Shown in pieces: positions 50,554 to 64,000 of a stretch of DNA of 64,000 nucleotides (position 1 is the stretch's first letter; each line of letters starts with the position of its first letter). The stretch covers positions 41,561-105,560 of the forward strand of contig JALOLF010000001.1 in assembly GCA_025456085.1 (NCBI GenBank). Reading direction: 5' to 3'. Position numbers and translations under genes: made by a program. Under the pieces are notes generated by a model. That model was given only the letters and a program-made list of their open reading frames with translations. It was not told the origin of the DNA and did not search any database. Origin of the DNA: Acidimicrobiales bacterium (GTDB lineage Bacteria; Actinomycetota; Acidimicrobiia; Acidimicrobiales; Acidimicrobilacustridaceae).

Positions 50554-52098
50554 GTGTTTCCAGGAGCGCACGCCGAGACGACGCCCGACAAGCCCGCCGT
50601 CATCATGGGCTCGACGGGCGAGACCATGACCTACGCGGAGCTCGACGCCGAGGCCAACCGGCTCTCGCAGCTGTTCCGTGCCGCCGGCCTGCAACCCGGC
50701 GACCACCTGGCGTTCTGCCTCGAGAACCATCCCAAGTTCCTGGCCGTGGCCTGGGGCGCGCACTACGCCGGGCTGTACTACACCGCGATCAGCAGCCGGC
50801 TCACGGCCGAGGAGGCGGCGTACATCGTCGGCGACTGCGGTGCCCAGGTGTTCATCACGTCCGCGTACAAGGCCGACCTGGCCGAGGCCATCGTGGCCGA
50901 CACCCCGAACGTGCGGGTCCGGCTCATGCTGGACGGGGTCGTCGACGGCTACGAGCCCTACGAGGAGGTCGTCGCCGGCTATCCGGCCACGCCGCTCGAC
51001 GAGGAGCGCATCGGCGGCAAGGACATGCTCTACTCCTCGGGCACCACCGGGCGCCCCAAGGGCGTGAAGCCGGCGATGCCCAGCGATGCGCTGGCCACCC
51101 CCACCGCCGTCACCGGGCTGTGCATGCTGCTGTTCGGCTACGACGCCGACACCGTGTACCTCAGCCCGGCGCCGCTGTACCACGCCGCGCCGTTGCGCTT
51201 CACCATGGCGGTGCACCAGGCGGGGGGCACGGCGGTGGTCATGGAGCACTTCGACCCCGAGCAGGCGCTGGCCCTCATCGAGCGCCACCGGGTGAGCCAC
51301 AGCCAGTGGGTGCCGACGATGTTCGTCCGCATGCTGAAGCTCCCGCCCGAGGTGCGCGAGCGGTACGACGTGTCGAGCCTGCGCTACGTGGTGCACGCCG
51401 CCGCGCCCTGCCCGGTGCCGGTGAAGGAGCAGATGATCGCCTGGTGGGGGCCGGTCATCCACGAGTACTACGCCGGGACCGAGGGCAACGGCTTCGTCTA
51501 CTGCAACAGCGAGGACTGGCTCGCCCACAAGGGCAGCGTCGGCAAGGCCCTGCTGGGTGCGGTGCACATCGTGGGCGAGGACGGCGTCGAGGTCCCCGTC
51601 GGGGAAGAGGGCACGGTGTACTTCGAGAGCGAGGCGGCCTTCGAGTACCACAACGACCCGGAGAAGACGAAGAGCGCCTACAACGAGCGGGGCTGGAGCA
51701 CGCTGGGCGACGTGGGCCGCCTCGACGAGGACGGCTTCCTGTACCTGACCGATCGCAAGGCGTACATGATCATCTCGGGTGGGGTGAACATCTACCCGCA
51801 GGAGACCGAGAACGTCCTCACCATGCACCCCAAGGTCTACGACGTCGCCGTGCTCGGCGTGCCCAACGAGGACTTCGGCGAGGAGGTCAAGGCCGTCGTG
51901 CAGCCCGTCGACATGGCCGACGCCGGCCCGGCGCTCGAGCGCGAGCTCATCGAGTTCTGCCGGGAGCACCTCGCCCACTACAAGTGCCCGCGCTCGGTGG
52001 ACTTCCTGCCCGAGCTGCCGCGGCACCCCACGGGCAAGCTCTACAAGCGGCTGCTGCGCGACCGGTACTGGGAGGGCCACCAGTCGAAGCTGGTGTGA
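50554..52098 (+). CDS. Acyl-CoA synthetase (AMP-binding, FadD-like)
   Basis: The 514-residue enzyme should activate a carboxylic acid as acyl-AMP and then acyl-CoA. Motifs in order are YSSGTTGRPKGVKPA (P-loop), WVPTMFVRMLKLP, YYAGTEGNGFVYCN, GWSTLGDVGRLDEDGFLYLTDR and the terminal PRHPTGKLYKRLLRD with the catalytic Lys. The substrate is not evident. It starts at a GTG. The RiPP cluster begins 48 bases after its stop on the same strand, but it could be a separate housekeeping gene. Confidence 0.92.
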   Translation: MFPGAHAETTPDKPAVIMGSTGETMTYAELDAEANRLSQLFRAAGLQPGDHLAFCLENHPKFLAVAWGAHYAGLYYTAISSRLTAEEAAYIVGDCGAQVFITSAYKADLAEAIVADTPNVRVRLMLDGVVDGYEPYEEVVAGYPATPLDEERIGGKDMLYSSGTTGRPKGVKPAMPSDALATPTAVTGLCMLLFGYDADTVYLSPAPLYHAAPLRFTMAVHQAGGTAVVMEHFDPEQALALIERHRVSHSQWVPTMFVRMLKLPPEVRERYDVSSLRYVVHAAAPCPVPVKEQMIAWWGPVIHEYYAGTEGNGFVYCNSEDWLAHKGSVGKALLGAVHIVGEDGVEVPVGEEGTVYFESEAAFEYHNDPEKTKSAYNERGWSTLGDVGRLDEDGFLYLTDRKAYMIISGGVNIYPQETENVLTMHPKVYDVAVLGVPNEDFGEEVKAVVQPVDMADAGPALERELIEFCREHLAHYKCPRSVDFLPELPRHPTGKLYKRLLRDRYWEGHQSKLV

Positions 52099-52146
52099 TC
52101 ACGTCGGGACCTGTAACCGCGCGGGGTCGGACCCGTCTCGTTCGGC

Positions 52147-54087
52147 GTGACGCCCGGCCACGGGCACAACGTCAGGTGGGCTGCATTGACGACGCACGAG
52201 GTGGTGCTGCGAGCCCGTCGTGGTCCGACGAGCCGATCGGCTCGGGTGGTGCTGGTCAACGCGCCGTGGGCGTCGGCCCACCGCCCGTCGATCCAGTGCG
52301 GCCTCCTCAAGTCGATCCTGTGCCGCGCCGGCCATCACGCCCGGGTCCGCTACCTCAACCTGGACCTCTCCCACCGCCTGGGGCCGCAGGCGTACAGCAC
52401 CCTCAGCGACAAGCGGCGCACCGACCTCCTCCTCGGGGAGTGGCTGTTCTCGGTGGCGGCGTTCGGCGAACAGGTGGACACCGACGCGACCGGCTACCGC
52501 AGCGTGGCCGACGGGATCGACGAGGTCTGTGCCGACCTGGGCATCACCTTCGACGAGCTGTGCCGGTGGCGCCGGGAGGTCTTCCCCGCCGTGGTGGAGG
52601 ACTGGGTCGCCGGCACCGACTGGGCCTCGTTCGACCTCGTGGGGTTCTCGTCGACCTTCGAGCAGACCGTGCCGTCGCTGGCGCTGGCCCGTCGGGTCAA
52701 GGAGGAGCATCCGCAGGTGGTGACCCTTTTCGGCGGCGCCAACTTCGATGGCGAGATGGGTCCCGAGCTCGTGCGGAGCTTCGAGCAGATCGACTACGCC
52801 GTGGTGGGGGAGGGCGACCGGGCGATCCTGGACGTGGTCGATGCCGTCGTGCGGGGCGAGTCCGCTCTCGGATCACCGGGAGTGATCGGTCGTCGCGACG
52901 GCCGCGTCGTCCTCGAGGGTCGGGCTCCCAACACCGAGTCGCTCGACGAGCTGCCCGACCCGGACTACGACGAGTACTTCGCGGTGCTCGACGAGCTCGG
53001 CTCATCGAGTGTCGTGGGCACGGTCGAGCCCCTGTTGCCGATCGAGTCGGCGCGGGGCTGCTGGTGGGGTCAGAAGCACCACTGCACCTTCTGCGGCCTC
53101 AACGGGGACACGCTCACGTTCCGGTCGAAGTCCCCCGAGCGGGTGCTCGAGGAGCTGCGCCGCCTGTCCGGCCGGTACCGGCGCCTCGGGTTCGAGGCCG
53201 TCGACAACATCATGGACATGCGGTACCTGCCCCGGGTGCTGCAGCCGCTGCGCGAGGCTCCCTACGACTACCGGTTGTTCTACGAGGTGAAGGCCAACCT
53301 CAAGCGTGAGCAGCTCGAGCTCATGGCCGACGCGGGGGTGGTGGCGGTCCAACCTGGCATCGAGAGCCTCAGCACGAACGTGCTGCGCCTCATGCGCAAA
53401 GGAACGACCGTGCTGCAGAACCTGCGTGTGCTCAAGTGGTCGCTGTTCCACGGCATCCGGGTGGGTTGGAACCTGATCATGGGCTTCCCCGGCGAGACCG
53501 TCGAGGACTATCGCGACCAGCTCGACCTGCTTCCGCTCGTCGCCCACCTCGAGCCGCCCGCGGGCGCCGGCCCGGTGTGGCTCGAACGGTTCAGCCCCTT
53601 CTTCACGGATCCGACCCTGGGCATCGAACCGCTGGGCCCGAACGCGGCCTACCGCCACATCTACCCGGCTCACGTCGACCCGGCGCGGGTGGCGTACTTC
53701 TTCGAGCACGCCTGGAAGGAGCGCGTGCCGGAGTCGCAGTTCCGGGAGCTGGCCGCCGCGGTCGAGGTGTGGAGGTCCCGTTGGCACGGCGAGGACAGGC
53801 CGGTGTTGTCCATGCAGCGCAGCCCCGACTGGCTGGAGATCGTGGACACCCGCACCGAGGGCCGGCCGGTGGTGCACGGCCTCGCGGGGGTCGAGGCCGA
53901 GGTCTACGCCTCCTGTGGCGACCGGGAGCTCGAGCCCGCCCAGGTCGTGGAACAGCTCGCGGCGCAGGGGATCGACACGCGGGTCCGCTGGGTGGAAGCC
54001 GTGTTGGACGCCTGCTGCGACCGCGGCCTGATGGCGGCCGACGGCGGTCGGTACCTGGCACTGGCCATACCGAGCGGAGGGCGATGA
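52147..54087 (+). CDS. B12-binding radical SAM enzyme, RiPP maturation type 1
   Basis: The 646 residues start with a cobalamin-binding-like Rossmann region (SARVVLVNAPWASAHRPS, VGFSSTFEQTVPSLALARRV, VVTLFGGANFDGEMG) followed by the radical SAM core. The cluster motif is RGCWWGQKHHCTFCGLNG with Cys305, Cys313 and Cys316, a CX7CX2C variant used by the RiPP-maturation radical SAM family 1. Such enzymes methylate unactivated carbons or modify precursor peptides. The start is uncertain: GTG at 52147, TTG at 52186 (AGGTGG upstream) or GTG at 52201. The stop overlaps ATG at 54084 as ATGA. Confidence 0.9.
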   Translation: MTPGHGHNVRWAALTTHEVVLRARRGPTSRSARVVLVNAPWASAHRPSIQCGLLKSILCRAGHHARVRYLNLDLSHRLGPQAYSTLSDKRRTDLLLGEWLFSVAAFGEQVDTDATGYRSVADGIDEVCADLGITFDELCRWRREVFPAVVEDWVAGTDWASFDLVGFSSTFEQTVPSLALARRVKEEHPQVVTLFGGANFDGEMGPELVRSFEQIDYAVVGEGDRAILDVVDAVVRGESALGSPGVIGRRDGRVVLEGRAPNTESLDELPDPDYDEYFAVLDELGSSSVVGTVEPLLPIESARGCWWGQKHHCTFCGLNGDTLTFRSKSPERVLEELRRLSGRYRRLGFEAVDNIMDMRYLPRVLQPLREAPYDYRLFYEVKANLKREQLELMADAGVVAVQPGIESLSTNVLRLMRKGTTVLQNLRVLKWSLFHGIRVGWNLIMGFPGETVEDYRDQLDLLPLVAHLEPPAGAGPVWLERFSPFFTDPTLGIEPLGPNAAYRHIYPAHVDPARVAYFFEHAWKERVPESQFRELAAAVEVWRSRWHGEDRPVLSMQRSPDWLEIVDTRTEGRPVVHGLAGVEAEVYASCGDRELEPAQVVEQLAAQGIDTRVRWVEAVLDACCDRGLMAADGGRYLALAIPSGGR

Positions 54088-54110
54088 GGCGCGATGAGGA
54101 GCGACACCCG

Positions 54111-55688
54111 ATGAGTACGACCTCTTCCACCAGACCTGCGAGTGATCAGCCCACCCGCACCGAGCTGGACTGGCTGCGGTCGTGGGAACGCTCGGGCAGC
54201 CGGGCGGCTGCGGCCCCGGATGATCCCGGGGCACAGGCGAGCCTCGCTTCGCTTACCGAGCGCCTCGACGAGTTCGGGCGTGGTCTCCCACCAGGTGAGC
54301 AGGCAGCCCTGGCCCTGTTGGTCGACCGGGCGCGGCAGCCCGACGCCCTCCGGCGGCTGGCCGAGCTGCCGCCGGAGACGGTGCTCACCGACGACGAGGT
54401 TGCGGTGTTCGACGCGCTCTGTGCTGAGCCGATCCCCGACCAGGCCGTGCTGCGACCCCAGCTCAACGTCGTCATGAAGGCGACGCGGCTGTGCAACCTG
54501 CGCTGCACCTACTGCAACTACTGGCGCGAGGGTCCGGGCCAGGTCATGTCCTTCGAGGTGCTGGCCCGACTGCTGCACGACGTCCTCGTGGATCCGGGTG
54601 TCGAGCGCGTGGAGTTCATCTGGCACGGTGGCGAGCCGACCCTGCTCGGCACCGAGTGGTTCCGCAAGGCGTTCTGGCTCCAGCAGCAGTTCCGCCGCCC
54701 GGGACAGGTCGTGGCCAACCGCACCCAGACCAACGCCACCCGACTGGAGGACGACTTCATCGACTTCTGGAAGGAGCACGACGTGATCGTCGGAGTCAGC
54801 CTCGACGGCCCGCCCGAGGTGCACGACCGCCGGCGCGTCGACCGGGTGGGCCGCCCGACGGCAGCTCGGGCCCGATCCGGGCTCGAACGGCTCCAGTCGG
54901 CCGGACTGGAACCGCGGGTGCTGCTGGTGTGCGACGAGGACGTGCTCGAGGTGGGGGCCCAGCGTGTCCTGGCGTACCTCCTCGAGCTCGGCGTCGAGCG
55001 CGTGGGGTTGCTCAACGTCGTGCCCGAGAACACCGTCGAAGGGGTCAGCGAGGGCAACGCCTACCTGGCCTGGCCCCGCTACGTGGCCTTCCTGACCGAG
55101 CTGTTCGACCTCTGGTGGCCGGCCCACGTGGCGGACATCAACCTGCGGGAGCTGGCCGACCTGGCCGGACAGCTCCTCGGTGGTCCGCCCCAGATCTGCA
55201 ACTTCGCCGGTGACTGCTTCGGTTCGGTCTTCACCGTGGAGCCCGACGGCCGGGTCGCCGCCTGCGACCGGTACGTGAACGTCGCCGCCAAGTCGTTCGG
55301 CTCCGTCGCCGAGCAGACGTTCCGTGATCTCGTCCTCGGCGAGCGGCTCGCCGCCGTCGCCACCGCCGAACGTGTGACGAGCCGTGCCACCGAGGAGTGC
55401 CGCTGGCGCCACGTCTGCCACGGCGGATGTCCACACGACCGGGACCTCTCGTCGGCGTTCGTCCCCGGTTGGGAGTCGAGCTGTTGCGGTCTCGGTCCCC
55501 TCCTCGATCACCTGGCGGCGTCGATGACCGAGGGCGGGTCCGAACTGGACGAGCCGAGCAGCGCCGCACGCTCGGCACCCCCGGCAGCTCCTCCGCCCTG
55601 GTACCCCGCCACGGCGCTCGCGCCCGTGGCGACACCCCTCGTCGCGACCGCTCCAGTGACGTTGCGCCCCCGGGGCCCGGCGTCCTGA
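54111..55688 (+). CDS. SPASM-type radical SAM enzyme with an N-terminal leader-like motif
   Basis: The 525-residue protein has radical SAM Cys128, Cys132 and Cys135 in TRLCNLRCTYCNYW, the core (FIWHGGEPTLLG, NATRLEDDFIDFW, VGVSLDGPPEVHD) and a SPASM C-terminus with extra cluster Cys residues (CNFAGDCFG, CDRYVN, ECRWRHVCHGGCPHD, CCGLG). Residues 52-76 repeat the precursor leader motif. A Pro/Ala-rich tail follows. SPASM enzymes install C-C or thioether/ether crosslinks. ATG at 54111 has GAGGAG nine bases upstream; ATG at 54084, which overlaps the previous stop, is the alternative. Confidence 0.9.
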   Translation: MSTTSSTRPASDQPTRTELDWLRSWERSGSRAAAAPDDPGAQASLASLTERLDEFGRGLPPGEQAALALLVDRARQPDALRRLAELPPETVLTDDEVAVFDALCAEPIPDQAVLRPQLNVVMKATRLCNLRCTYCNYWREGPGQVMSFEVLARLLHDVLVDPGVERVEFIWHGGEPTLLGTEWFRKAFWLQQQFRRPGQVVANRTQTNATRLEDDFIDFWKEHDVIVGVSLDGPPEVHDRRRVDRVGRPTAARARSGLERLQSAGLEPRVLLVCDEDVLEVGAQRVLAYLLELGVERVGLLNVVPENTVEGVSEGNAYLAWPRYVAFLTELFDLWWPAHVADINLRELADLAGQLLGGPPQICNFAGDCFGSVFTVEPDGRVAACDRYVNVAAKSFGSVAEQTFRDLVLGERLAAVATAERVTSRATEECRWRHVCHGGCPHDRDLSSAFVPGWESSCCGLGPLLDHLAASMTEGGSELDEPSSAARSAPPAAPPPWYPATALAPVATPLVATAPVTLRPRGPAS

Positions 55689-55722
55689 CCCTTCGTCGGA
55701 GCGGCACATGACGCTCCGTCGA

Positions 55723-55743
55723 CGCTCCGGACCGCCCGGAGTG
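55723..55743 (+). other. Hairpin between the SPASM enzyme and precursor genes
   Basis: CGCTCCGG (55723-55730) pairs with CCGGAGTG (55736-55743), with one G-T pair and a 5-base loop, 26 bases before the precursor start. It may be a processing or partial termination site that raises precursor RNA relative to the enzymes. Confidence 0.45.
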
Positions 55744-55768
55744 CTGCCGACCAACAAGGAGACAGCCG

Positions 55769-56041
55769 ATGGCACAGATCACGAACAGCGACATCGAATC
55801 CGTCGCCACGAAGCTCGAGGACTTCGCACAGAGCCTCAACCCGGAGGAGCGTGCCCTGCTGGGCTCGGTGCTCGCACGGGCCGAGGCGGCCGGTGAGGCA
55901 GAGGTGGAAGGCTTCGCCCTGCAGAGCTACCAGCTCGCGCCGATGAACAACCAGCTGTACAAGTCGGCGGGCCTGCGCCCCCAGGCCCTGAAGCCTGGTG
56001 TGGGGGACATGGCCTCGGTCACCGTCTCGTGGAGCTGGTGA
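55769..56041 (+). CDS. Putative RiPP precursor peptide, 90 residues
   Basis: The ATG has an excellent AAGGAG eight bases upstream. The first 49 residues are acidic and helical (IESVATKLEDF, NPEERALLGSVLARAEA, EAEVEGF), leader-like; the likely core is residues 50-90, rich in Gln, Leu, Ser, Tyr and Pro and ending in ASVTVSWSW. There is no Cys, so it is not a lanthipeptide or a sactipeptide of the usual kind. Its place between two radical SAM enzymes and a kinase and methyltransferase, and the motif shared with two of those, argue strongly for a substrate role. The family is not one I know. Confidence 0.85.
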   Translation: MAQITNSDIESVATKLEDFAQSLNPEERALLGSVLARAEAAGEAEVEGFALQSYQLAPMNNQLYKSAGLRPQALKPGVGDMASVTVSWSW

Positions 56042-57015
56042 GCGACGTCCGCAGGACAGCCGGCTCGGGGGTCGTCGACACGGCGCTGCCGTCGGTCGGC
56101 GGCCCTCGGGCGGGCGGCCGGTTCACCGCGACGGGGATCGTCCGACAGGGACGGTTCACCTCGGTCGAGCAGTGGCAGGACCAGCTCCTCGGACGACTCG
56201 TCGCCGCCAAGCAGGTGCGGTCGGACCTGCCCGCCGACCTCCGAGCGAGGGCTCGATCGCTGCTCGACGCAGAGGCGGCGCACCGCGCCGGACCCACGGT
56301 GCGTGGTCTCGTGCCGCTCTGGGACGTGGCCGGCGACGCGCGGGGGCCGGTGCTGCTGGGGCCATGGCTTCCCGCCTCGTTGGCGGGACTGGTCGTCGGA
56401 GAGCCACACCACGGGCACGTCCTGCGGGTGCTGGGCGATCTGGCGTGCACCCTGGACGCGTTGCACGACCGGGGGCTGTGGTTCGGCGACCTGTCGCTCG
56501 GGAACGTGCTGCTCGACGAGACCGGCCGGGCGTTGCTCGGCGACCTCGGGTCGATCCGGGTGCTCGGCTCGCAGCAGCCCGCAGACCGGCCCCTCGATCT
56601 CACCCCGGCCTTCGCCGCACCCGAGGTGTGGCGCAACGAGCCGGCGTCGCCGGCCAGCGATGTGTACGCGCTCGCCGTCACGGCGTTCTGGTTGCTCACA
56701 GGACGCCTGCCCTTCGACGCCGCCCACCCGGACCAGGTCCGCGACCTCCACCTGGCCGCCGCACGCCCGTCAGCGCGCGACGTCACTCCGGGTCTGCCCG
56801 CCGCTGCGGACCATGCCCTGGCGCAGGGGCTCGCCCCGCGCCCTTCCATCGCCCCCCGACGTGCGCGGCCTTCCTGGCGGAGCTCACCTCGGGGATGGAC
56901 GGCGAGGCGAGCGCTGGTGGGTCGTCACGCGTACCCCGGTCCGACGACCCCCGTGCAGACGAGGCGGAGCCGGCGACGGCGATCGACCTCCTGGAGCGCT
57001 TCGCAGGATCACTGA
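56038..57015 (+). CDS. Protein-kinase-fold enzyme of the RiPP cluster (frameshifted C-terminus)
   Basis: The GTG at 56038 overlaps the precursor stop as GTGA. The 325 residues contain the kinase core: Lys58 in RLVAAKQV, Asp151 and Asn156 in WFGDLSLGNVLL, Asp169-Leu-Gly as DFG equivalent, APE at 194-196 and SDVYALAVTAFWLLTGRLPFD. The catalytic residues look intact. After LAQGLAPRP the frame becomes arginine-rich, while the next frame gives the expected FHRPPTCAAFLAEL. One base seems missing at about 56838-56846. As written, the kinase ends as an abnormal tail. Confidence 0.8.
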   Translation: MSDVRRTAGSGVVDTALPSVGGPRAGGRFTATGIVRQGRFTSVEQWQDQLLGRLVAAKQVRSDLPADLRARARSLLDAEAAHRAGPTVRGLVPLWDVAGDARGPVLLGPWLPASLAGLVVGEPHHGHVLRVLGDLACTLDALHDRGLWFGDLSLGNVLLDETGRALLGDLGSIRVLGSQQPADRPLDLTPAFAAPEVWRNEPASPASDVYALAVTAFWLLTGRLPFDAAHPDQVRDLHLAAARPSARDVTPGLPAAADHALAQGLAPRPSIAPRRARPSWRSSPRGWTARRALVGRHAYPGPTTPVQTRRSRRRRSTSWSASQDH

Positions 57016-58067
57016 CCGACGAGGAACGGCGGGCGCTGGCGCTGCTCGTGGGGCGCGCCGTGGCGGCCGACCGGGACGGCGCCCGCCGGTTCGTGGCCCT
57101 GGCGGTGCGGCACCTGGCGGTCCCGGCCGCCCTGCAGGCGGCCGAGGAGACCGGGTTGTCCACGGTCCTCGTCGACCGCGCCGGTACCGCCGGTGATCTC
57201 GCCGTGCGCTCGGGGCTGGACGCCGATCGCGTGCGGACCGTGCTCGACTGCCTGGCTGCTGCCGGGTACGTCGAGCGGCAGGCGTCGCGGTACTCGGCCA
57301 GCGCGGCGTTGTCGGCGGTCTACGGGCCGATGGCGGCGCCGCAGCCGATAGCCGGGGCGCTGCGGTTCTGGGACGGCGCGACGACGTGGCTGCGGACGGG
57401 GTCGCCGGCCATCTCGATGCTCGACACCGACGGCAGCGCCTACGCCGCGGTGAGCGACGAACTGGCTGCCGCGCACCGGCAGCCCGCCGCTGCCCTGGCC
57501 GCCCGGCTCGTCGAACACGATCTCCTTCCGTCCCGGGCCCGGGTGGTCGATATCGGTGCGGGGTCGGGGGTGTGGGGCACCGAGCTGCTCGAGCGGGCGG
57601 CGGAGGCCAGCCTGGTCCTCGTCGACCGACCCCGGGTGCAGGAGCGGGCGATGGAGCGGGCCGAGCAGCTCGGTCTGGCCACCCGTGTGCGGTGCGGTCC
57701 GACCGACTGGCGGGACCTCGCATCGTCGTCGATCGATGCCGACATCGCCGTGCTCGCCAACGTCTGCCACGTCGAGTCCTCGTCCTCGGCGGCCGCGCTC
57801 GTGGCCGCGGCGGCGGGATGCGTGGTCCCCGGCGGCGCGGTCGTGGTGGTCGACACGATCCCCGAAGCCCCCGGCGTCGATCTCGACGCCTCGGCCCAGG
57901 CACTCCAGCTCGGCCTGCGCACCGGCTCCGGCACCGTCCACAGCGAACTCGACTACCGGCGTTGGTTCCACGCCGCCGGGCTCGCCGAGCCCTTCCCGTT
58001 GGAGCTCGAGGTGCCGGGCAGCCGACTGCGTGCGCTCGTCGGTCGTCACGGGTCGCGCGCGGGCTGA
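56895..58067 (+). CDS. SAM-dependent methyltransferase with an N-terminal leader-like motif
   Basis: From ATG 56895 the 390-residue protein has a short acidic N-terminus, the leader-like motif at 33-57 (LERFAGSLTDEERR onward), a winged-helix-like dimerisation region (STVLVDRAGTAGDLAVRSGL, VLDCLAAAGYVER) as in O-methyltransferase family 2, and the SAM-binding VVDIGAGSG at 217-225. Conserved DRPRVQERAMER and TIPEAPG follow. The same frame stays open upstream to the kinase end, so a kinase-methyltransferase fusion is possible. The substrate is presumably the precursor or its product. Confidence 0.85.
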   Translation: MDGEASAGGSSRVPRSDDPRADEAEPATAIDLLERFAGSLTDEERRALALLVGRAVAADRDGARRFVALAVRHLAVPAALQAAEETGLSTVLVDRAGTAGDLAVRSGLDADRVRTVLDCLAAAGYVERQASRYSASAALSAVYGPMAAPQPIAGALRFWDGATTWLRTGSPAISMLDTDGSAYAAVSDELAAAHRQPAAALAARLVEHDLLPSRARVVDIGAGSGVWGTELLERAAEASLVLVDRPRVQERAMERAEQLGLATRVRCGPTDWRDLASSSIDADIAVLANVCHVESSSSAAALVAAAAGCVVPGGAVVVVDTIPEAPGVDLDASAQALQLGLRTGSGTVHSELDYRRWFHAAGLAEPFPLELEVPGSRLRALVGRHGSRAG

Positions 58068-58076
58068 CGGAGCCGG

Positions 58077-59081
58077 TCAGGGTCGGGTGCGGGGTGTCTG
58101 CTCCGCGGTGAGTGCCGGATCGCGTACCACCACCTCGCCCAGAGCGGTGTCGACGGCGGCCAGCACGTCGGCCTCGAGGGTCACCCCGGACGCGGCCACG
58201 TTGTCGGCGACCTGCTCGGGCCGTGAGGCGCCGATGATGGCCGACGCCACGTTGTCGTGCTGGAGCACCCAGGCGATCGCCAACTGGGCCATGGTCAGGC
58301 CGCACTCCTGCGCGATCGGTTGCAGGCGCTGCACGGCTTCGAGCACCGGGTCGCGCAGCCAGCGGCGGATGAACAGCGCGCCACCGGTCTCGTCGGTGGC
58401 CCGGGACTCCTCGGGCACGCTGGCGCCGGGCGCGTACTTGCCGGTCAGCACCCCCTGGGCCACGGGTGACCACACGATCTGGCTGATGCCGAGCTCCTCG
58501 CAGGTGGGGACGACCTCGGCCTCGATGACCCGCCACAGCATCGAGTACTGGGGCTGATTCGACACGAACGGGATCCGCAGGTCCCGGGCGAGGGCATGGC
58601 CGGCCCGGAGCTGCTCCGCCGTCCACTCGGACACGCCGATGTAGAGCGCCTTGCCCTGGCGCACCAGGTCCGCGAAGGCCTCCATGGTCTCCTCGAGCGG
58701 CGTCTCGTGGTCGTAGCGGTGGGCCTGGTACAGGTCGACGTGGTCGGTGCCGAGCCGGCGCAGCGAGGCGTCGATCGACTCGGCGATGTGCTTGCGGGAC
58801 AGGCCCCGGTCGTTGGGGCCGGCTCCGGTGGGCCAGTACACCTTGGTGCACAGCTCGAGGCTCTCGCGGCGCACATCCCGCAGCGCCTCGCCCAGCACCA
58901 CTTCCGCCTTCGTGCCGGCGTAGACGTCGGCGGTGTCGAAGGTGGTGATGCCGGCGTCGAGCGCGGCGCGCACGCAACGGTGGGCGGTGTCGTCACCGAT
59001 CTGCGCGCCGTGGGTGATCCAGTTGCCGTAGGAGATCTCGGAGACCTTCAGGCCGCTGTTGCCGAGGAACCGGTGCTGCAT
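58077..59081 (-). CDS. Aldo/keto reductase
   Basis: The 334-residue protein is an NADPH-dependent carbonyl reductase of the Kv-beta/YghZ-like group. It has FDTADVYAGTKAEVVLGEAL (catalytic Asp and Tyr), CTKVYW (Lys), YQAHRYDHETP (His) and the C-terminal IIGASRPEQV cofactor site. All four AKR tetrad residues are visible. It ends nine bases after the RiPP methyltransferase but on the opposite strand, so it is unlikely to be in that operon. The substrate is unknown. Confidence 0.92.
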   Translation of the reverse strand: MQHRFLGNSGLKVSEISYGNWITHGAQIGDDTAHRCVRAALDAGITTFDTADVYAGTKAEVVLGEALRDVRRESLELCTKVYWPTGAGPNDRGLSRKHIAESIDASLRRLGTDHVDLYQAHRYDHETPLEETMEAFADLVRQGKALYIGVSEWTAEQLRAGHALARDLRIPFVSNQPQYSMLWRVIEAEVVPTCEELGISQIVWSPVAQGVLTGKYAPGASVPEESRATDETGGALFIRRWLRDPVLEAVQRLQPIAQECGLTMAQLAIAWVLQHDNVASAIIGASRPEQVADNVAASGVTLEADVLAAVDTALGEVVVRDPALTAEQTPRTRP

Positions 59082-63799: not shown

Positions 63800-64000
63800 A
63801 TGAGTGCACCACACGACGCAGCGGATTCGCGTGCCGCCGAGGTCAGGGCCGCGGTGGACGTCTATCTCGGGCTTCGGGACCGCATCGAGGCGGGTGAGGC
63901 CACCTGGGTGGCGCTCGCCGAGCTCTTCACCGACGACGCGGTGTACATCGATCCGGCCTGGGGACGGATCCAGGGCATCGAGGAGATCCGGTCGTTCCTG
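63800..64000 (+). CDS. SnoaL/NTF2-like protein (partial, N-terminal)
   Basis: The ATG has GGAGGAG upstream. The visible 67 residues include VDVYLGLRDRIEAGEATWVALAEL, FTDDAVYIDPAWGRIQGIEEIRSF, the early part of a SnoaL-like (NTF2) fold with the helix and the FTDDAVYIDP strand motif. The window ends inside the gene. Members are often ring-cyclases, isomerases or ligand-binding proteins; the activity is unknown. Confidence 0.75.
   Translation, partial: MSAPHDAADSRAAEVRAAVDVYLGLRDRIEAGEATWVALAELFTDDAVYIDPAWGRIQGIEEIRSFL

Follow-up and report, generated by a model that had tools for sequence, protein, structure and literature searches.

A predicted peptide-maturation cluster related to daropeptide loci shares a leader-like hairpin between its precursor and two of its enzymes

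Daropeptides are ribosomally synthesized and post-translationally modified peptides (RiPPs) that are described as leads against Gram-negative bacteria (PMC9055067). Their maturase DarE, a radical S-adenosylmethionine (SAM) enzyme of the SPASM type, installs a W-O-W ether plus a W-K carbon link on the core WNWSKSF and the ether alone, as judged by mass spectrometry, on WTFRF, and the leader of darobactin is removed by a protease encoded outside the unit (PMC9055067). Here we analyzed a 64,000-nucleotide stretch (the window) of contig JALOLF010000001.1 from an Acidimicrobiales bacterium, in which five open reading frames (ORFs), all on the + strand between 52147 and 58067, encode a B12-type radical SAM enzyme, a SPASM radical SAM enzyme, a 90-residue peptide, a protein with a kinase fold and an O-methyltransferase-type enzyme (Table 1). 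A sequence-only reading had proposed this order of genes and interpreted the block as a RiPP cluster; both proposals stand, and the reading overlooked the kinship to darobactin maturases and a leader domain that the peptide shares with enzymes of the block. We conclude that the block is very likely a real RiPP cluster, a divergent daropeptide cousin that lies outside both DarE and DarW by their curated cut-offs. The RiPP interpretation is well supported by precursor-like ORFs with homologous leaders near relatives of the SPASM enzyme in 16 of 48 related loci, and by the enzyme's two best curated families, both peptide maturases.

The locus resembles daropeptide systems (NF038005; PMC9055067) in its related SPASM maturase, its Trp-x-aromatic core and the lack of a dedicated protease in the unit. 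It differs from them in the score of its enzyme against the DarE family (353.5 bits against 650), in a core that sits at the extreme C-terminus without K/R-x-F, and in the addition of a B12 radical SAM enzyme, a kinase, a methyltransferase and an enzyme-borne leader-like domain. The unit also lacks darBCD, as cluster IV daropeptides are described to do in that source (PMC9055067). The best-scoring family is DarW (NF041300), at 428 bits against 650. Among these features, the leader domain is a more general and more testable find than the odd set of enzymes.

The shared element is a helical hairpin with the pattern L..F...L...E..AL..LL..A, found at residues 3-40 of the precursor, 52-91 of the SPASM enzyme and 19-55 of the methyltransferase. 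A model built from the N-termini of 12 enzymes, with the window left out, matched the window precursor with an expect value (E) of 4.2e-4 among 13,990 ORFs of 92 sources, a set that contains the window's locus several times. Its other matches at E <=0.15 were the window enzyme and small ORFs adjoining SPASM genes (in L005, L012, L013, L035-L037, L039-L041, L046 and L084/L088, with L086 and L089 as further views of the L036 genome; L and G numbers are our handles for loci and genomes), with an orphan peptide of the window's genome as the one exception. A second model, trained on 26 segments of other genomes and run with composition correction off, gave 44.1 bits for the SPASM enzyme, 39.2 bits for the precursor and 24.5 bits for the methyltransferase; it did not report the B12 enzyme, the kinase or the upstream coenzyme A (CoA) ligase, and a methyltransferase homologue reached 3.1 bits. 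When the N-terminal 110 residues (or the whole precursor) were shuffled, none of 3000 shuffles reached the respective score for any of the three proteins. An AlphaFold2 model of the SPASM enzyme, in a 525-residue form that starts 9 residues later, placed helices at 39-57 and 61-74, with a mean predicted local distance difference test score (pLDDT) of 78-89 for residues 41-80 and 74.8 for the whole enzyme. The corresponding stretch of the methyltransferase was also modelled as helical, at pLDDT <50.

We analyzed the recurrence of the domain in 48 related loci, comprising 45 of 80 retrieved (L003-L046, L061) plus L088, L089 and L094, where L089 is the same genome as L036; the excluded loci (L047-L060, L062-L082) are mostly more distant and include three further DarE-type loci (L048, L049, L075). 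With composition correction on, the 26-segment model matched 25 ORFs in 17 of the 48 loci at E <=0.01 among 9,760 ORFs. Of these, 24 were on the strand of the SPASM core and no further than 300 bases from it; the remaining one, in L045, is separated from the core by the B12 gene. The 16 loci with precursor-like ORFs include two repeats (L041 of L040, and L089 of L036), and the 17th, L046, has a stand-alone small protein only. Furthermore, in L036, L037, L039, L040, L088 and L094 a precursor-like ORF and a separate small domain protein both precede the SPASM gene, while in the window's own clade the leader domain is fused to the enzyme. Fourteen of the training segments came from loci matched later in this run, and many of the matched ORFs or near copies of them had been trained on (L013, L035, L037, L041 and L089 nearly duplicate members of the training set); the held-out cases are the second ORF of L039 and the two ORFs of L094, where, with the correction on, the precursor matched at E 2.9e-9 and the separate small protein at E 4.6e-4.

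The L094 arrangement (L094:5224-5981) lies on plasmid p1 of Cupriavidus sp. KK10, where the precursor-like and leader-like ORFs stand before a DarW-like enzyme in a part of the record without annotated features. Long precursor-like ORFs, each overlapped by a leader-like ORF and adjoining a DarW-like enzyme, were seen in Streptomyces (L036:7320-7986, QWAYVRPEKW) and Micromonospora (L037:3511-4213, QWSYVRPERW). The stand-alone small proteins of L040, L088 and L094 matched no Pfam or NCBIfam family above cut-off, and no report of a leader-like domain in such enzymes was found in the literature searched, mostly by titles and abstract openings.

PqqD is the usual recognition fold; a PqqD-like recognition domain was rejected here, as Pfam shows no such domain in any of the five proteins. 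The hairpin of the precursor may instead pair with that of the enzyme. It is also conceivable, if somewhat unlikely, that the enzymes' leader-like domains do not dock the precursor and are either a fused leader activating the enzyme in cis or a leftover of duplication or fusion. The presence of the domain is silent on contacts, and leader-enzyme fusions, engineered from lanthipeptide and cyanobactin enzymes, can act on leaderless substrates. However, in the six-locus arrangement described above, precursor, small leader-like protein and SPASM enzyme are distinct side-by-side genes, which suits a partner role.

The SPASM enzyme carries PF04055 and PF13186 (25.4 bits, cut-off 21.5, in a Pfam scan), and its radical SAM CxxxCxxC motif is CNLRCTYC at residue 137. 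The best 2 of its 44 NCBIfam matches were NF041300 (DarW, 428 bits) and NF038005 (DarE, 353.5 bits); other families included the anaerobic sulfatase maturase (221.6), DynA (180.1), AmcB (128.7, cut-off 425) and GrrM (115, cut-off 310). In a 64-row tree (50 locus rows including three distant outgroups, 13 of 119 listed relatives, which numbered 428 in all at the limit, and the window enzyme), the enzyme fell in a 14-row clade with 13 database proteins (support 86/65). This clade joined, at 81/89, a 36-row clade that holds both experimentally studied DarE kinds (Photorhabdus WNWSKSF and WTFRF); the tree also joined long branches, L045 with L061 among them. Judged by these matches, the enzyme is kin to the darobactin maturases DarE and DarW, though divergent, and we therefore took the W-S-W tail of the precursor as its predicted core. 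In the same set, the DarW-type enzymes of L040 and L041 are identical on contigs labelled Parcubacteria and Planctomycetes, and one of the two bins is probably contaminated.

The precursor has a ribosome site, AAGGAG, 7 bases 5' of its ATG, no Cys, and only two Trp residues, at positions 88 and 90; a Cys-free peptide of 90 residues ending in Trp-Ser-Trp is what the earlier reading had described. W88-S89-W90 has the W-x-W/F/Y form of daropeptide cores. Among nearby precursors, those of L005, L009, L014, L015 and L029 have the same motif in their last seven residues, and those of L012 and L013 in their last twelve. Precursors near DarE-clade enzymes end in SWTYRF, WTWTFRF, EWTWTYRF, IWKYKF or IWKYQI, and others hold WFY close to the end; W-S-W itself occurs in a DarA-like precursor of Vibrio qingdaonensis (L042:372-575) as AWSWSRGF, where WSWSRGF replaces WNWSKSF. 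As a control over 47 loci (L089 dropped), we counted W-x-W/F/Y within 12 residues of the end in ORFs of 40-160 residues. Of 124 ORFs no more than 400 bases from the SPASM core and on the same strand as it, 10 had the motif, two of them (L016, L019) seemingly by chance. The remainder of this strand gave 41 of 1455, a figure that takes in distant true DarA genes, and the opposite strand 32 of 2159.

It appears very improbable that the 90-residue frame encodes a small protein with a regulatory or structural role rather than a RiPP precursor. A word-based search covering 5.8 billion proteins, in which 13 candidates were scored, returned nothing but the peptide itself at E <=0.01, a point in favor of such a protein; the strong ribosome site, the terminal W-S-W and the homology of its leader to those of peptides beside peptide maturases all speak against it. 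NF041299, the DynW-associated RiPP peptide family, matches the precursors of L005 (67.1 bits) and L015 (110.6 bits, cut-off 40), which carry the leader domain and W-x-Y; the window precursor was not listed at an E limit of 10, with filters that drop most matches above 0.1. The aroma-sacti cluster domain (NF045560) gave 13.8 bits on precursor residues 11-48 (cut-off 30) and was rejected as a match of chance size for a genome (E 0.32); no paper on this domain was found in the literature searched. A sactipeptide or ranthipeptide was rejected as well, since the precursor lacks Cys donors.

The same genome encodes an orphan 97-residue peptide (G000:C123:39699-39842; L090:7682-7972, + strand) with 46% identity to precursor residues 4-53, in which VEGYALP aligns with VEGFALQ and TIAWSP stands near the end; it matched nothing in Pfam or NCBIfam. 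No maturase was found among the ORFs listed in the surrounding 3.1 kilobases (kb), nor did the genome contain another SPASM relative at E <=1e-60. The orphan could possibly be a second substrate, acted on from afar.

The B12-type enzyme matched TIGR03975 over its full length, well above the cut-off (639.9 against 281.85 bits), and C-methylation is predicted from the name of this family. Its start may be TTG 52186 rather than GTG 52147. Relatives occurred in two of the 48 loci, both myxobacterial (L045, 46% identity; L061, 36%), each scoring >650 bits with TIGR03975, so that a B12 enzyme paired with a DarW-like enzyme was seen in three loci, the window included. A distant Clostridium locus (L053) with TIGR03975-like and SPASM genes (30% and 27% identity) was left out as not DarW-like. 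The candidate cores linked to B12 enzymes share V-T/S-W (TVSWSW in the window, TVTWTN in L045, GVTWSKS in L061), and this common motif makes the Val two places before the Trp a first guess for the methylation site, although three cases are few.

Together, these data favor, if by a small margin, the following reading: the block belongs to the wider DarE/DarW group of RiPP clusters, its SPASM enzyme likely crosslinks W88 and W90, probably through an ether, its B12 enzyme would C-methylate near the core, and leader-like hairpins likely recruit the precursor. In the pathway we propose, the precursor hairpin would pair with the enzyme hairpin like two halves of a helix bundle and place the C-terminal W-S-W in the SPASM active site. 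The W88-W90 ring would form first, probably as a darobactin-type ether, and the B12 enzyme would then methylate a carbon near the core. The hairpin-bearing methyltransferase could methylate a hydroxyl or carboxyl group, and the kinase, provided that it is functional, would phosphorylate Ser or Thr. A protease from outside the unit would finally remove the leader and release the product. The earlier expectation that no peptidase or transporter lies inside the unit was confirmed, none being present among the seven proteins scanned (50554-59081).

A broader version of this proposal holds that the leader was copied onto its own enzymes (the SPASM enzyme and the methyltransferase) or freed as a partner, that like-with-like pairing replaces the canonical recognition element, and that the product is a hypermodified, B12-methylated Trp-Ser-Trp ring; this is a serious possibility that we lean slightly against. 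The cluster adds to the kin of daropeptide maturases a branch from the phylum of Streptomyces with a linked B12 C-methylase, and it suggests a directly testable module for leader recognition that peptide and enzymes have in common. Real pairing would make the hairpin a portable tag with which further enzymes could be directed to a peptide, and would mean that the small stand-alone proteins encoded next to maturases of this type have been overlooked as partners.

Several observations weigh against the proposed DarE/DarW-type pathway. The cut-offs of DarW and DarE are both 650 bits, which leaves the enzyme 222 to 297 bits short, and the fork that joins it to DarE has a support of just 81/89. The precursor matched no curated RiPP family above cut-off. 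Loci of the closest clade were not found in the genomes searched and none of their precursors is visible, so that the evidence for the W-S-W core comes from the window and from relatives further away. The hairpin of the methyltransferase is the weakest of the three: the 12-enzyme model did not report it with composition correction, and gave E 1.5e-4 without. Moreover, the leader domain was not found in 31 of the 48 loci, including all Gammaproteobacteria darobactin loci in the set as well as WTFRF loci, L003, L009 and L061, and it is thus dispensable for DarE chemistry in general. In L061 the core motif is not C-terminal and the leader scores at chance; the myxobacterial B12-linked cores lack a second aromatic residue, so that a reaction other than ether formation is conceivable should these loci be genuine relatives. 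There is also the break in the kinase frame, at about 56,845. Finally, W-S-W is also compatible with a three-residue C-C cyclophane (W-x-x).

The last point defines the main rival to our first guess of a W88-W90 ether, namely that the SPASM enzyme forms a triceptide-like cyclophane on W-S-W with the rest of the pathway unchanged. The cyclophane maturases AmcB, GrrM, YhhB and FxsB also match the enzyme (107-129 bits, the AmcB and GrrM cut-offs not being reached), its nearest solved RiPP maturase is ChlB, represented by a ChlB-ChlA structure in the Protein Data Bank (PDB), and the W-T-N and W-S-K of the myxobacterial cores suit W-x-x. DarE itself forms one C-C link (PMC9055067). However, DarE and DarW outscore AmcB, the best family named as cyclophane-forming, by about 225 and 300 bits, and the neighboring clade is rich in W-x-W/F/Y motifs, ethers having been reported for two of these (PMC9055067). 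We regard a cyclophane as unlikely.

The kinase carries the motifs VAAK, FGDLSLGN and GDLG, which we take to be the Lys, the catalytic Asp-Asn loop and D-L-G, and its best NCBIfam matches were the MAD6 kinase (62.9 bits) and LanL (61.2 bits, cut-off 650). Its frame has 328 residues, the last ~56 of which are out of phase. Inside the gene, at about 56,840-56,845 (frame change within 56820-57015), the codon-use signal switches from frame 1 to frame 0, and the methyltransferase frame, with no stop between, encodes a kinase-like C-terminus (HRPPTCAAFLAEL). On the basis of this switch and this C-terminus, the kinase and the methyltransferase may belong to a single gene that is broken or fused, in which a base was lost or gained, either in the genome or in the assembly. 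The methyltransferase (ATG 56895) matched PF00891 (Methyltransf_2, E 6.8e-9); its nearest solved structure by sequence is MfnG, and its structure model matches O-methyltransferases. The kinase fold resembles the kinase domains of class III/IV lanthipeptide enzymes (LanKC, LanL), whereas the window has no lyase or cyclase domain; lanthipeptide-like dehydration was rejected because none of the five proteins contains either.

Both genes might lie outside the peptide pathway as decayed or chance neighbors, which we consider doubtful but with an appreciable chance. Neither has a relative in any of the 48 loci, and tblastn of related loci returned the window's own genes only; the kinase frame is broken; and only 3 other methyltransferases were found (E <=1e-15, 7997 candidates scored), all without the N-terminal extension. 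Against this, the kinase gene overlaps the precursor stop (GTGA), and the methyltransferase bears a leader-like hairpin that is absent from the three homologues found. A conserved block with the same five genes had been named beforehand as the check on the cluster, and in this respect the earlier expectation failed, with kinase and methyltransferase relatives in 0 of 48 loci and the B12 enzyme in 2 of 48. Its description of tiny gaps or overlaps throughout holds for the ATGA overlap of the SPASM gene start with the preceding B12 gene (alternative SPASM start, 54111) and for the GTGA overlap of the kinase (start GTG 56029 or 56038), but not for the 80 bases that separate SPASM gene and precursor.

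Table 1. Positions in the window of the five genes, the leader-like hairpins and the predicted core.
Feature	Position	Strand	Basis
B12-type (class B) radical SAM enzyme, predicted RiPP C-methyltransferase	52147..54087	+	TIGR03975 639.9 bits; PF04055; weak PF02310
SPASM radical SAM maturase, DarE/DarW kind	54084..55688	+	NF041300 and NF038005, both sub-cut-off; CNLRCTYC; tree
SPASM enzyme N-terminal leader-like hairpin, residues 52-91 of the 534-residue form	54237..54356	+	44.1 bits, 26-segment model; AlphaFold2 helices
Precursor peptide, 90 residues, Cys-free	55769..56041	+	AAGGAG ribosome site; leader homology to precursors next to related enzymes
Precursor leader domain, residues 3-40	55775..55888	+	39.2 bits, 0/3000 shuffles
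Predicted core W88-S89-W90, extreme C-terminus	56030..56038	+	Sole Trp residues of the peptide; W-x-W/F/Y near precursor ends in related loci
Protein-kinase-fold enzyme, frame shift ~56,845	56029..57015	+	PF00069 E 4.5e-16; VAAK, FGDLSLGN and GDLG motifs; codon-use switch
O-methyltransferase-type enzyme	56895..58067	+	PF00891; MfnG best PDB match by sequence; O-methyltransferase folds by structure
Methyltransferase N-terminal leader-like hairpin, residues 19-55	56949..57059	+	24.5 bits, 0/3000 shuffles

We also searched sampled genomes for relatives of the SPASM enzyme. No loci of the relatives at 50-65% identity were found in these samples, and close relatives may exist in genomes that were not drawn. 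Relatives were present in 2 of 395 genomes of the class (the window's own and G199, at 42%) and in 2 of 396 of the phylum (the window's own and G714). The class of the Sorangium genome yielded 8 of 289 at E <=1e-50, comprising two known loci (1e-114 and 6e-97) and six weaker ones (L097-L102, E 4e-60 to 1e-51), and the phylum of L003 yielded 1 of 396, the starting locus itself. The phylum of L051 gave 0 of 400 in a sample without a known match, so that this empty result is uninformative. Viral contigs gave 20 pattern matches and no relative, and plasmids gave two records at 37-38%.

The genes on either side were rejected as members of the cluster. The upstream CoA ligase (50554-52098) has close homologues at 74-78% identity in G035, G779, G773, G328 and G774 (partial); the B12 enzyme was not found in these genomes, and 1.5 kb on either side of the homologues had no blastn matches to the window's flank or cluster. 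The downstream aldo-keto reductase has homologues in 6 other genomes, and in the 5 compared the cluster is not beside them. The B12 enzyme was found in 1 of 37 genomes of the same family, the window's own (E <=1e-60). Thus, with flank homologues in relatives that lack the cluster, the cluster appears to be sporadic, which would suit a horizontal gain. The segment at 63839-63999 adjoins the aldo-keto reductase homologue in G035, and ~4.8 kb separates the two in the window.

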